34,710 nucleotides of DNA from a bacterium (GTDB taxonomy: Bacteria > Patescibacteriota > Microgenomatia > Curtissbacterales > GWA2-41-24). Position 1 is the first letter of the stretch; each line of letters opens with the position of its first letter. The DNA is taken from the NCBI GenBank assembly GCA_021813125.1, contig JAKALT010000011.1, forward strand, positions 1-34,710, in the 5' to 3' direction. This document shows positions 5,679 through 25,100 of the stretch, one piece after another. Made by a program: the position numbers and the translations under genes. Below the pieces are notes generated by a model. That model made no database searches. It was not told where the DNA came from and saw only the letters and a program-made list of their open reading frames with translations.

Positions 5679-7616
5679 CTACCCCCAAAAACTAAGTCTT
5701 TCTTTTTGCGCAAACTCTTTGAAGCTTTCAGCAATTTCGTCGAGATCGTGATCAACAGCTTTGTGGCCTTTGGCGTCGACAATTATGTTGCCGTCCGCAT
5801 CTTTTTTGTAATAATAATCTCCAGAATTATCCTTGCCGCTCTTTTTGGAAACTGCCATAAAGATTGGGTAATCTTTTAAGGCTTTTTCGTTATCTCTCCA
5901 TTTTTGCAAAAATAGCACTGAAGTTTTGGTTCCAGTATGGGGCTTGAAAGTATTTACGTTTAGGCCGACTACCGCCAGAATCCGTGCTTTATCGAAAAGA
6001 AATTCGCGGATATATTGCATGTTTGTATTGTTCAAAACTCCCTGAGGTAAAACAATTGCTAGTCTTCCGCCTGGTTTTATTAGATTAAGCGCGCGCTCAA
6101 TAAAAAGAATGTGGCGCTCCATTTTATTGCGTAGTTTGCCTTTATCGTTTTTGGCTAAGGAGTATTCGTTTAGAAGTGTTCTATCTTTGATTTCGCCTGC
6201 AAAAGGTGGATTTGTAAGAAGGACATCAAAGTCAAAATATTTGAAATGTCTTTCGTTTTCTGCATCTTTTGTATAATCGCCGAATTTATGCAGTCTATCG
6301 CGCAGTTCTGAGCGAGCTTTTTCTTTTTCTCGATCATCACCGCTCCACTCGGCTGGGTTTAGAGAATTTAGTTTGAAAACATGGGATTTGCCATCACCAG
6401 CAATAAGCATGAGGGCGCGTGAAATTTTGACTGGTTTGTCGTCAAAATCTATCCCGTAAATATGGGTAGCGGCAAAGTTTATCTTGGTTTCGCGGGATTT
6501 TTCATCCATATCGTTATTCCAAACCCATTGCATGGCATGAATTAAAAATCCGCCCGATCCGGACGCAGGGTCTACGATGTATTCGTTTTCTTTTGGATTT
6601 AGCATTTTTACGGCCATGTCGATTACATGCCGTGGTGTGAAATACTGTCCTTTTTTGCCTTTGGCAACATCTGGGAGCAAATATTCAAAAGCCCGGTCTA
6701 TAATTTCTAGATTAGCGTCGTAAAGCTTGATTTTTTCCAGTTCCCCAATGCAGACTGACAGATGATTAGGTTCTAGAAGAATGCTTTCTCCATCCAGAAA
6801 CATTCCTGGCCATTCGCGTTTGGCGTCGTTAAAAAGTTTTTGAATATTGTCGTAAGTTATTCTTGCTTCTGATGATTGGCGAAATAGAAGTTCGTTATTT
6901 ATGTCACCAGCGTCTTTTTCGTCGTAGAGTTTAGCATAAATTAACTTGAAAATTTCGTTAAATGAATCGACACCGGCTCCTGCTAAAACTAACTCTTCTA
7001 AGACTTTGATTATTTTTACTAAATCGAAGTTTGTTTCCAGATCATTAAGAGTGAGATGTGATTCAAAAACATCTTGAATAGTTTGGTTTGATCTTGGAAT
7101 ATCACGAAGGGTATTTTCGAATTGATGAGGATAAGGACGGTATAAGATAACTTTTGATTTGCCGTCACTTAGAACTCCGATTGGGCTTCCTTTGGCATTT
7201 AGATAGCTTTTAATTTGTTCAAGTCCATCTTTTGAATCAGGACTTTTCATTTCCAGAACAATTAAGGTAGTTTCTTTATCTTCTTGATAAATAACAATGT
7301 CTGCGGCTTTCTCATGAACCTCACGGCCAAAATCGACAGAGACTTCGACTGCTATTCGTTCTAGTGGATAGTTATAATCTTTGATTAATTTTTGGAGCCA
7401 AAGTTGACGGACTATTTCTTCTGGCTCTCCTATTTGTTTTTCCTCGTTCCAAACAAGTAAATCTTTATCTCGCTTGAAACATTTGAGGTAAAACTTGCCT
7501 TTTTCCTTTTCAAAAATTTCCAATATGTCTTCTGGGTGAAGTGCACCAAATTCTTCAAGGCCGTATGCAAGATCTGGTTTTTTAAAGATTTTGTCTAAGA
7601 TTTGTTTTGTGGTCAT
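5679..7616 (-). CDS. Fused PD-(D/E)XK nuclease and N6-adenine methyltransferase (BcgI/Type IIG-like)
   Basis: The 645-residue protein joins two enzymes. The N-terminus (about 50-165) is an HSDR_N-type nuclease with ADIVIY (Asp106) and VLEMKSP (Glu122, Lys124). A helical linker (about 170-300) follows. The methyltransferase has QYFTPRHVIDMAV (324-336), the SAM-binding motif DPASGSGG (349-356) and the catalytic NPPF (469-472). No HsdR helicase gene is visible. A single chain that cuts and methylates, paired with a separate S subunit, is the organisation of BcgI-like Type IIB/IIG systems, not classical Type I. The start overlaps the LexA-like gene by four bases (ATGA). Key residues of both active sites are present, so I expect an active enzyme. 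Confidence 0.9.
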   Translation of the reverse strand: MTTKQILDKIFKKPDLAYGLEEFGALHPEDILEIFEKEKGKFYLKCFKRDKDLLVWNEEKQIGEPEEIVRQLWLQKLIKDYNYPLERIAVEVSVDFGREVHEKAADIVIYQEDKETTLIVLEMKSPDSKDGLEQIKSYLNAKGSPIGVLSDGKSKVILYRPYPHQFENTLRDIPRSNQTIQDVFESHLTLNDLETNFDLVKIIKVLEELVLAGAGVDSFNEIFKLIYAKLYDEKDAGDINNELLFRQSSEARITYDNIQKLFNDAKREWPGMFLDGESILLEPNHLSVCIGELEKIKLYDANLEIIDRAFEYLLPDVAKGKKGQYFTPRHVIDMAVKMLNPKENEYIVDPASGSGGFLIHAMQWVWNNDMDEKSRETKINFAATHIYGIDFDDKPVKISRALMLIAGDGKSHVFKLNSLNPAEWSGDDREKEKARSELRDRLHKFGDYTKDAENERHFKYFDFDVLLTNPPFAGEIKDRTLLNEYSLAKNDKGKLRNKMERHILFIERALNLIKPGGRLAIVLPQGVLNNTNMQYIREFLFDKARILAVVGLNVNTFKPHTGTKTSVLFLQKWRDNEKALKDYPIFMAVSKKSGKDNSGDYYYKKDADGNIIVDAKGHKAVDHDLDEIAESFKEFAQKERLSFWG

Positions 7617-8393: not shown

Positions 8394-8466
8394 ACAAAGA
8401 CCTTGTTTCCGAATTGTCACCGTATGGTGCGCGTGTCAAACATTCGTTTGAATAGGAAGCAAGGTC
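8394..8466 (+). ncRNA. Structured small RNA next to DUF3800
   Basis: Directly after a perfect promoter, ~73 bases fold into a three-way structure. The outer 12-pair stem is GACCTTGTTTCC (8399-8410) with GGAAGCAAGGTC (8455-8466), with one G-U pair. The first inner hairpin is CACC-GTAT-GGTG (8418-8429). The second is TCAAAC-ATTC-GTTTGA (8436-8451). No protein is encoded. The RNA ends four bases before the convergent stop of the DUF3800 gene. From memory, several distinct structured RNA motifs have been reported beside DUF3800 genes (named DUF3800 motifs). Whether this matches one of them cannot be tested here. Direction is inferred from the promoter. No U-rich terminator is visible, so the 3' end is uncertain. 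Confidence 0.7.
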
Positions 8467-8469
8467 GAA

Positions 8470-9093
8470 CTATTTAAAGAGCCAAATATCTTCCACCCTT
8501 TTATTTTGTTTAAGTATTTGCAAACATGATTTGTCTTTTCCTTTATAATCTGCTGCGATACAACCCGACACCATATCTGCAAGTTGAATGAGGGTATTTT
8601 GCCTTGAATCTTCGAATTTCAGGTCTTTGAAGATTTTACCCTTTTTGTTGTTTAAGCTTCGGCTTAGGTAAACACGTAACTTATCTCTAATTTCCCTTTC
8701 ACCTCTCTTGTCGAACTTAAGTCTGGCATTTTTTATTTTTCGCTGGCTATGTTTAAGGATCTGCATAATGGCATGGCTGTAAAAATCTTCCTTGTAGCTT
8801 CTAAGTCTGGGACTATAAATTTTATCTTTATCAAAGAGTATTGCCCTTATTTTGTAATCAAAATTCGAAACGGCGTTAAAAAAAGCTTTTTTAAATCGCT
8901 GATCACATTTATTGAACTTGAATTCGAACCGGTCATCTACTTTTAGTTTTCGCCTGAGTTCTTTGATGGCTATAGATGTTTTTTCGGCGTCTAGATAATC
9001 GTTAAAAATAACCAAGGCCACGACAAAAATAGGACTGGAACCACTCTTTGTTTGAAATCCCGGATCGCCGGATTCGTCAATAAAGACAAGCAT
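8470..9093 (-). CDS. DUF3800 protein, predicted RNase H-like fold
   Basis: The 207-residue protein begins with FIDESGDPG (Asp6, Glu7, Asp10) and has QLADMVSG near 170-177 (Asp173), the hallmarks of DUF3800. The acidic pattern resembles RNase H-like nucleases and transposases, but the biochemical role of the family is not established. The middle is very basic (KHSQRKIKNARLKFDKRGER), which fits nucleic acid binding. ATG at 9093 lies six bases after the -10 box of repeat copy B. It converges on the structured RNA at 8394-8466. The pair is flanked by direct repeats, so I read gene plus RNA as one cassette. It may be a defence, toxin or mobile module; this is inference. Confidence 0.85.
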   Translation of the reverse strand: MLVFIDESGDPGFQTKSGSSPIFVVALVIFNDYLDAEKTSIAIKELRRKLKVDDRFEFKFNKCDQRFKKAFFNAVSNFDYKIRAILFDKDKIYSPRLRSYKEDFYSHAIMQILKHSQRKIKNARLKFDKRGEREIRDKLRVYLSRSLNNKKGKIFKDLKFEDSRQNTLIQLADMVSGCIAADYKGKDKSCLQILKQNKRVEDIWLFK

Positions 9094-11171: not shown

Positions 11172-11480
11172 TTAAGCCAGGTTTTCTTCTCCCCTTTCAT
11201 AAAAACTTATAGAGACGTAGTTTGCGGTTTTGCCGATGAGATTGAGTTCATCTTGCAAAGCATTTGTTACTTCGTCTTCTCCTTCGACTCTAAAGGCTAC
11301 TATCCTTTTCAAAAAATCCGGCGTGTGCAAAATTCCTTCGAAAACACAATGTTGGAAGCTGATTCCTGTCCCTGTTCCAATTAGCTTTAAACCTTCGGGC
11401 ACTTCGCCATCTATTATCTCAAGCGTTTTTGTGGTCCATTCATGTTCACGGCTTAAATAATGATATTTATGCTCCGGCAT
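11172..11480 (-). CDS. Small protein of unknown function under SAM riboswitch control
   Basis: The 102-residue soluble protein has mixed helix and strand: HEWTTKTLEIIDGEVPEGLK (14-33), then IGTGTGISFQHCVFEGI and a long segment ending YVSISFYERGEENLA. There are no membrane helices, so it is not a transporter by itself, and I see no methyltransferase or methionine-synthesis motif. A strong Shine-Dalgarno site (AGGAGGTG, 11485-11492) lies four bases before ATG 11480. This is preceded by a terminator hairpin and a SAM-I aptamer, so it should be expressed when SAM is low. That links it to methionine or SAM supply. The family is not recognised. Confidence 0.75.
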   Translation of the reverse strand: MPEHKYHYLSREHEWTTKTLEIIDGEVPEGLKLIGTGTGISFQHCVFEGILHTPDFLKRIVAFRVEGEDEVTNALQDELNLIGKTANYVSISFYERGEENLA

Positions 11481-11519
11481 TTTTCACCTCCTTTTTATTT
11501 GGAAAGAGGCTTTTGCCGT

Positions 11520-11547
11520 AAAAAACCTCTTTGAAAAAAGAGGTTTT
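11520..11547 (-). terminator. Expression-platform terminator of the SAM riboswitch
   Basis: A perfect 11-pair stem, AAAACCTCTTT (11522-11532) with AAAGAGGTTTT (11537-11547), has a four-base loop. On the minus strand it is followed by Ts that continue the stem's T run. It sits between the SAM aptamer and the Shine-Dalgarno site of the 102-residue gene. On the plus strand it is followed by TTTTGCTTTTT, so it may also work for transcripts coming the other way. Confidence 0.8.
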
Positions 11548-11554
11548 GCTTTTT

Positions 11555-11668
11555 GTCTTAGACCTAATCTTTCCAAAATGGTTGGATTTGGCACCGTGGT
11601 TTTTACTCGGTTGCCGGATGGGTCACAGGGCCAATTCCCTCACCATCACTCTAGATTTATTAAGTTGT
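11555..11668 (-). promoter_or_regulatory. SAM-I (S-box) riboswitch
   Basis: Read on the minus strand, the region shows the S-box core in order. TCTAGAGTGATGG leads into GAGGGAATTGGCCC, then CCGGCAACC, a variable loop, CGGTGCCAAATCC and GGAAAGATTAGG. Possible P1 pairing is AATCT with AGATT, extended by CTTA with TAAG. The terminator follows directly. In this class SAM binding favours the terminator, so the downstream gene is on when SAM is low. An extended -10 (TGCTATAAT) is placed to start transcription at the 5' edge of the aptamer. A covariance model search would confirm the exact ends. Confidence 0.9.
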
Positions 11669-11674
11669 ACTTAG

Positions 11675-11683
11675 ATTATAGCA
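11675..11683 (-). promoter_or_regulatory. Extended -10 promoter of the riboswitch transcript
   Basis: TGCTATAAT on the minus strand, with no good -35 box at 17-18 bases. It would start RNA near 11668, just before the aptamer. Confidence 0.6.
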
Positions 11684-11749: not shown

Positions 11750-13054
11750 ATGGCTGAACGAGTGGAAACTACTTCCGTGAGGCAAGTGAGCCGCAGAGGT
11801 TTTTTAAGGTTAATTCCAAAAGCTGTGGGCGCAGGGGCTTTTGCTCTTGGTGCCGCGGCAATTCCAGACGTCAACGAAAGGCTGAGATCTTACAATAGAA
11901 GCGATTTGATAACACCCGTTTACGGGAAGCATGATACCGGTTTTGCCGGTGAGATGAAACAATACAGTTTACAGCTTGAGGGTTCGAACGGCGGCCGATT
12001 GAGTGATACGCACATGTGGTCGGATAACGTAAGACGTGAGCTTGAACAGCTTAAGCCGGGCGTTATTGCGATCGACAGCTTTGGCTACACGCAATTAGAC
12101 CCCAATTTTTCAACGGTTAATGAATATTTTTGGTATGGGCTTCCCGGTGACCCGTTTTCCCTAAAGAGGACCGGTGAACTCTCAATTTTGGCTGCCGACT
12201 TGCCTTTCGGGGTACTTGTAGATTACAAGAAAAACAAATATACCTATCAGGCAAAAGATCCGATTGGTGCCAGGGTGCTTCAGGCAGCAGTTGATCATTA
12301 CGAAAAGTCCAACGGTGTAGGCATTGAAGCTGACATTAATTACATGGTTGCAGAGGACAAAGTTGGCTCTTACATAGACAGACAACGCACGGAATTTATG
12401 GTTTCCGCTTTTGGCGTAGGCGGCCTGTCACTGGCATATCTGGCTGCCCATCCGGCAATTTTTCAACATAAAATGCCCAGAAGGCAAGCATTGAAAATCG
12501 GTGCTATAGGTTTGGCAGGTCTTGCCAATAGCGCAAGGGTTAGCGCACTTTATACTTTTAATACTGAAGAGGCTTTATATAATCCTGCTTTTGCCCCTGT
12601 TTCGGCAATACCAGAAATTACGGATCATGCACTCAAACTTGAGAAGTATGATCTTTTTAGGAATGCACTGATTGCTGCAAAGTTGGATGAGGCTACAGCC
12701 CAAGCCGATGGAAGCCACAAAAAGGGTGTTGCTGTAATGGGTTGGGGTCACGGACTTGTTGAATCGGTTTGGAATAATCCAAAAGAAAGAGAACGGATTA
12801 TAAAGGGTGTTTTGCGGGATATTTTTTCCGATTTGGCACAGGACAAGCCAAGCGAGGAAGACAGACGCCAAATGCTTGGTGCGGTGATACAGCTTTACGG
12901 CACAATGGCCAGATATGATATTGGAGACGCCCCATCGGAGATGACAGTTGAAGGCTTAAAGAAAAGCATTACCAATAGTGTTGATTCGGTTTGCTTTTCG
13001 ATTTCGGATATGGCAAAAGAAGCCGCGATTGACGTCGGTTTTGTTGAGAAATAG
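11750..13054 (+). CDS. Protein with a twin-arginine signal-like N-terminus
   Basis: The 434-residue protein begins with SRRGFLRLIPKAVGAGAFALG (15-35), a good Tat signal peptide. A second, internal stretch, MPRRQALKIGAIGLAGLANS, follows a membrane-like segment (about 217-238). This resembles two signal-like segments in one chain, or a membrane anchor pair. The rest has conserved-looking blocks LKPGVIAIDSFGY, LAADLPFGVLVDYK and GVAVMGWGHGLVESVW. The last one faintly recalls TraB/PrgY-type GHxxG segments, but I would not assign it. No TatC gene is in the window. The start is fixed by the promoter seven bases upstream. It converges on the methyltransferase gene. Confidence 0.7.
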   Translation: MAERVETTSVRQVSRRGFLRLIPKAVGAGAFALGAAAIPDVNERLRSYNRSDLITPVYGKHDTGFAGEMKQYSLQLEGSNGGRLSDTHMWSDNVRRELEQLKPGVIAIDSFGYTQLDPNFSTVNEYFWYGLPGDPFSLKRTGELSILAADLPFGVLVDYKKNKYTYQAKDPIGARVLQAAVDHYEKSNGVGIEADINYMVAEDKVGSYIDRQRTEFMVSAFGVGGLSLAYLAAHPAIFQHKMPRRQALKIGAIGLAGLANSARVSALYTFNTEEALYNPAFAPVSAIPEITDHALKLEKYDLFRNALIAAKLDEATAQADGSHKKGVAVMGWGHGLVESVWNNPKERERIIKGVLRDIFSDLAQDKPSEEDRRQMLGAVIQLYGTMARYDIGDAPSEMTVEGLKKSITNSVDSVCFSISDMAKEAAIDVGFVEK

Positions 13055-24746: not shown

Positions 24747-25100
24747 CTAGCCCCACCAGACTTCTTTGATGCGGGCATCCTGGCGGTCGGCGCCAAAAAA
24801 TTCGCAGCAGTAATCGACCATTGGGTTTCGCTCATAGGGTTTGCAGGAAAAGATGTCAATTAACACTTCACTATTTTTAGTGAAGGTGTGAACGGCAATA
24901 TGGGAGAAGTCGATAAGAATAACGCCGGACATGCCGGGGTTTTCGGGAATCCCCGGAGATATCAGGGGCCCATCCAAAACGTGCATATTTGAGCGCTTAA
25001 CAATTTCAAGTAAAAATTCATGCACAGCTTGCTGGTCGTTGAGATTTTTGGTGCAGCCTGAAAGGTCACAGATAATATGGTAGCGTGGTTGTTTGACCAT
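24747..25100 (-). CDS. speD: S-adenosylmethionine decarboxylase proenzyme
   Basis: The 117-residue protein matches the short bacterial SpeD. Ser66 in FSHIAVHTF is the self-cleavage serine that becomes the pyruvoyl group. His71 and Cys86 (IDIFSC) lie at exactly the distances seen in T. maritima SpeD (Ser63, His68, Cys83). The residue before the serine is Phe instead of the usual Glu, which is unusual. SpeD supplies aminopropyl groups for spermidine. No spermidine synthase (speE) is in the window, so it may serve another reaction or a scavenged partner. The promoter ends eight bases before ATG 25100. Confidence 0.88.
   Translation of the reverse strand: MVKQPRYHIICDLSGCTKNLNDQQAVHEFLLEIVKRSNMHVLDGPLISPGIPENPGMSGVILIDFSHIAVHTFTKNSEVLIDIFSCKPYERNPMVDYCCEFFGADRQDARIKEVWWG

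Follow-up and report, generated by a model that had tools for sequence, protein, structure and literature searches.

For orphan genes, riboswitches offer one of few dependable clues to function, as the ligand names the pathway. Leaders of the SAM-I class (S-box leader; RF00162) are known for controlling methionine or SAM genes. The window analyzed here (the whole stretch of 34,710 nucleotides) contains a leader that resembles them in its full-length aptamer match, its terminator platform and its location 5′ of a gene; the gene that it would control, by contrast, encodes a 102-residue protein that could not be placed. The closest comparisons come from the same class of bacteria, in which metK follows a switch of the same riboswitch family at 44 of 79 loci, the commonest arrangement, with a small open reading frame (ORF) preceding metK at three of them. 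In contrast, metK is not behind the switch in the window, and the gene is absent in the sister species and 5′-truncated in this genome. A second comparison is provided by the SAM-I-led small ORFs of family f3 (∼90–150 codons) that lie beside ahcY (loci L029, L053, L037, L067, L071 and others), which share with the window the aptamer, whose subtype is related, the terminator, a strong Shine–Dalgarno site and the order of these elements and the ORF; they differ in the absence of detectable protein similarity, in their neighborhood and in the presence of metK. Our search of the open-access literature found nothing relevant on SAM riboswitches in the Candidate Phyla Radiation/Patescibacteria, to which this bacterium probably belongs, judging by its genome size and gene content.

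The aptamer (11661–11562, minus strand) matches RF00162 over the full model (positions 1–108) with 54.7 bits, compared with a gathering threshold of 44.4, and with an E value of 3.9e-10 in a search against all 4227 Rfam families. An earlier note on this DNA had recognized a SAM-I riboswitch from the letters alone and proposed a covariance search, in which a low score would have spoken against it; the score obtained confirms the identification. This is the only SAM-I match in the 1.04 Mb genome and, judged by its sequence, is an ordinary SAM-I riboswitch that is predicted to bind SAM. Upstream lies a σ70-like promoter (TCTACA-18-TATAAT; 11704–11675, minus strand), the −10 element of which is extended (TGcTATAAT), as the note had observed. 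The aptamer is followed by an intrinsic terminator (11547–11520, minus strand) with a stem of 11 pairs (11547–11522), again as described earlier, and a minus-strand U-run. Pairing of the terminator 5′ arm with the 3′ strand of P1 is predicted and would give an antiterminator, and equivalent hairpins are found at many SAM-I loci of the class. The Shine–Dalgarno sequence AAGGAGGT (11493–11486, minus strand) places GGAGG 6 nt ahead of the ATG at 11480 and is as strong as had been claimed. Between the terminator and this site we add an anti-Shine–Dalgarno (anti-SD) segment, GCCUCUUUCCAAAU (11510–11497, minus strand), to the features listed previously; its part GCCUCUUUCC (11510–11501) has two predicted alternative partners, the Shine–Dalgarno sequence and the 3′ strand of P1, the latter pairing extending over 10 bp.

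The order of promoter, aptamer, terminator, Shine–Dalgarno site and 102-codon ORF agrees with that proposed, and all of these parts recur in the same order in G001 (record JAKAJD010000002.1), the nearest genome, which represents another species of the genus and is hereafter called the sister. The sister aptamer is 93% identical and scores 56.4 bits. The terminator hairpin has an equivalent there, the Shine–Dalgarno sequence is identical, the start codon is retained, and the segments TGCTATAATCTAA of the promoter and CCTCTTTCCAAA of the anti-SD region are kept; the region upstream of the promoter is not.

The ORF (11172–11480, minus strand) encodes a protein of 102 residues with a molecular weight of 11.6 kDa, an isoelectric point of 4.9 and the hydropathy of a soluble protein. 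Its sister ortholog is 85–87% identical, with a dN/dS ratio of ∼0.11–0.15 (0.097/0.65 by NG86 and 0.086/0.79 by YN00). As the cassette is retained in the sister and the ratio is low, we conclude that the ORF is a real protein-coding gene under purifying selection. Pfam, NCBIfam, PHROG and PADLOC gave no match to its product, and the PDB no significant sequence match, and thus these searches place the protein in no known methionine or SAM family; it had rightly been called unrecognized. No phage or plasmid relative and no viral contig were found. The sister ortholog is the sole relative in a scan of genomes of 84,980 species, and profile searches, which covered 374 genomes from the class and 380 from the phylum, yielded no further credible homolog. 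Weak matches in other genomes (E values of 0.02–0.2) were discarded as chance, as was one in G471 (E value of 0.004) that covers 39 residues and contains a stop. A GcvH-like N-terminus (YxxxHEW) was noted by eye and set aside, as family searches give it no support. The structure prediction suggested in the earlier note provided no usable fold: the AlphaFold model, built from a two-sequence alignment, has a pLDDT of 39 and is uninformative.

Besides the SAM-I/ORF cassette, the region shares with that of the sister a DUF3800 gene with a DUF3800-IX RNA, a class I methyltransferase and a small membrane protein, while the surroundings differ in their type I restriction–modification genes, HicBA-like genes and orphans. 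No methionine gene adjoins the ORF in either species. The DUF3800-IX RNA (8399–8470, plus strand; 61 bits) abuts the DUF3800 gene (8470–9093, minus strand), and the pair recurs in the sister (RNA at 7031–7102 of L012). Divergent from the riboswitch is a 434-residue orphan (11750–13054, plus strand) with a twin-arginine-like signal and no family match.

The earlier note also supposed a reduced methionine metabolism, which the gene content supports. Neither this genome (G000) nor the sister contains AhcY or a MetE-type synthase, and no archaeal-type SAM synthetase that could replace metK was found in 12 genomes that include both. The sister has no metK domain. In G000, metK (1–1083 of the window, plus strand) begins at position 48 of its N-terminal domain, so that the first ∼47 positions are missing, and is preceded by 126 unrelated bases and a stop at the contig end; it is either a pseudogene or cut by the end of the assembly. 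Additionally, metK is missing in G012, G035 and G060 and is a fragment in G227, all four of which carry a SAM-I-led small ORF, as do G000 and G001. Such organisms would need an outside source of SAM. The genomes are 77–100% complete, so that single gene absences are weak evidence, and the f3 genomes with SAM-I-led small ORFs keep metK, and thus its loss is not general. An S-adenosylmethionine decarboxylase (AdoMet_dc, E value of 3.6e-20; 24747–25100, minus strand) is present in this genome, which is otherwise short of SAM-cycle genes.

Of 374 genomes surveyed in the class, 75 carry SAM-I, and the switch and metK tend to occur together: 67 of these 75 genomes have metK, compared with 95 of the 299 that lack SAM-I. 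The genes behind 79 SAM-I sites were read; more than half of these sites score below the Rfam gathering threshold; their placement ahead of methionine genes speaks for most of them being real. Apart from the metK loci, nine sites precede other methionine genes (metA, metE, metF, PLP enzymes and a GAF protein resembling, by similarity, free-methionine sulfoxide reductase), 18 (about a fifth) precede small ORFs of ∼90–210 codons and eight precede other genes. The last group includes two SAM hydroxide adenosyltransferase-like proteins (L027 and L051) that weakly match the C-terminal domain of that enzyme (L027 was tested and L051 is its homolog); SAM-consuming enzymes behind a SAM riboswitch would be unusual. 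At L019 and L030 the switch lies ahead of a fusion of guanylate-kinase-like and histidine phosphatase domains. ORFs of 68–71 residues separate SAM-I from metK at L025, L038 and L066, and the intervening proteins of L038 and L066 contain a CPxC-type zinc-ribbon-like motif.

Among the 18 small-ORF loci, a metE or PLP-enzyme gene comes after the small ORF at two (L061 and L075), and the remaining 16 have no such follower. Some of the small ORFs adjoin genes for S-adenosylhomocysteine hydrolase (AhcY) and adenosine kinase, metE or a PLP enzyme; in family f3, several share one locus, in convergent orientation to the genes for S-adenosylhomocysteine hydrolase and an adenosine-kinase-like protein, and the small proteins there belong to different clusters. 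At least six clusters are present in total, with no detectable similarity between them, and thus sequence homology does not unite the small proteins into one family. Homology of the window ORF to the others was likewise rejected using phmmer, blastp and hhalign, with hhalign probabilities all under 3% and phmmer E values above 0.2. The platforms are similar at most of these loci, with a terminator of the ACCTCTC...GAGAGGT type followed by AAAGGAGGTG. In a tree of the aptamers, 16 of the 18 from small-ORF loci, including that of the window, fall within one 34-row split (SH-aLRT of 98) that also holds six aptamers of methionine genes and eight of metK; the alignment has only 107 columns, and many of the forks lack resolution.

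A mechanism can be proposed for the 193-nt leader from predicted pairings. The P1 3′ strand pairs with the terminator 5′ arm at −8.4 kcal/mol and with the anti-SD segment (over the 10 bp mentioned above) at −12.4 kcal/mol, and the anti-SD segment pairs with the Shine–Dalgarno site at −10.2 kcal/mol. When the P1 5′ strand is blocked, the nascent leader of G000 is predicted to refold to an antiterminator-like pairing, and the free minimum-energy fold of the sister leader pairs the anti-SD segment with the P1 3′ strand. The terminator hairpin persists in the predicted ON folds of the full-length leaders, so that antitermination would have to be kinetic. With SAM bound, P1 would close, the terminator would form and transcription would halt before the ORF, and a hairpin masking the Shine–Dalgarno site may contribute a second, translational layer. 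When SAM is scarce, the P1 3′ strand would instead pair with the terminator 5′ arm, the anti-SD segment or both, and the strong Shine–Dalgarno site would be used. From these pairings, which are predictions for a platform kept in both species, we infer a response to SAM in the off direction, and a SAM-off attenuator with a possible Shine–Dalgarno-masking layer is the simplest reading of the leader.

Low SAM would then lead to synthesis of the genus-restricted acidic protein. Its most likely task is to help supply or spare SAM or methionine in a small-genome lineage whose SAM synthetase is gone or on its way out. The suggestion of the earlier note that it is a methionine/SAM-related factor agrees with the only homolog found, which is itself riboswitch-led rather than free of such a switch, and with the company that the target keeps in the class. 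On the strength of that company the role is probable, its weak points being the lack of a recognizable domain, the failed fold prediction and the existence of only two known sequences. The reading as a whole, a SAM-off attenuator acting on such a protein, is on balance the one we favor, with fair but not high confidence.

It may be asked whether the riboswitch is instead the relic of a methionine or SAM gene, with the ORF a captured orphan that has no SAM-related role. In its favor, the SAM-I-led small ORFs across the class are mutually unrelated, the lineage is losing methionine genes and the locus is a variable island; however, the aptamer, terminator, anti-SD segment, Shine–Dalgarno site and ORF are conserved together in two species under purifying selection, and unrelated small ORFs would have to have been captured repeatedly behind SAM-I in several families. 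We consider it unlikely. It is improbable that the ORF is simply the first gene of an operon with the true SAM-controlled target further downstream, as the next genes differ (a 305-residue orphan in one species and HicB/HicA-like genes in the other) and the nearby shared genes are only DUF3800 and the methyltransferase, which in the window lies upstream of the riboswitch, although the downstream genes are co-directional in both species and L061 and L075 offer examples of a metE or PLP gene placed in this way.

In both species, the ORF shares its island and strand with type I restriction–modification genes located downstream, and an acidic protein could protect its host against the type I system encoded there, or tune that system, when SAM for modification is low. 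The restriction alleles differ between the species while the ORF is conserved, several genes intervene, the f3 small-ORF loci adjoin ahcY instead, and PADLOC, Pfam and PHROGs reveal no likeness to known anti-restriction proteins, which makes this role quite improbable. Finally, SAM riboswitches of Listeria reportedly act in trans as small RNAs, and the compact leader carries its own terminator; with a strong Shine–Dalgarno site and a selected ORF directly following, such a function is very improbable here.

Across the class, a distinct SAM-I subtype with a terminator platform and strong Shine–Dalgarno site may head a previously unrecognized set of fast-diverging small proteins of SAM/methionine homeostasis, some of the species having lost SAM synthetase beforehand; we offer this wider proposal tentatively, as possible if doubtful. 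SAM-I marks a genus-specific protein here, and in the class at least 16 loci have only a small ORF of no known function behind the switch. These loci provide a manageable set of candidate SAM/methionine factors that can be tested, from bacteria whose metabolism is very reduced and some of which have no recognizable SAM synthetase.
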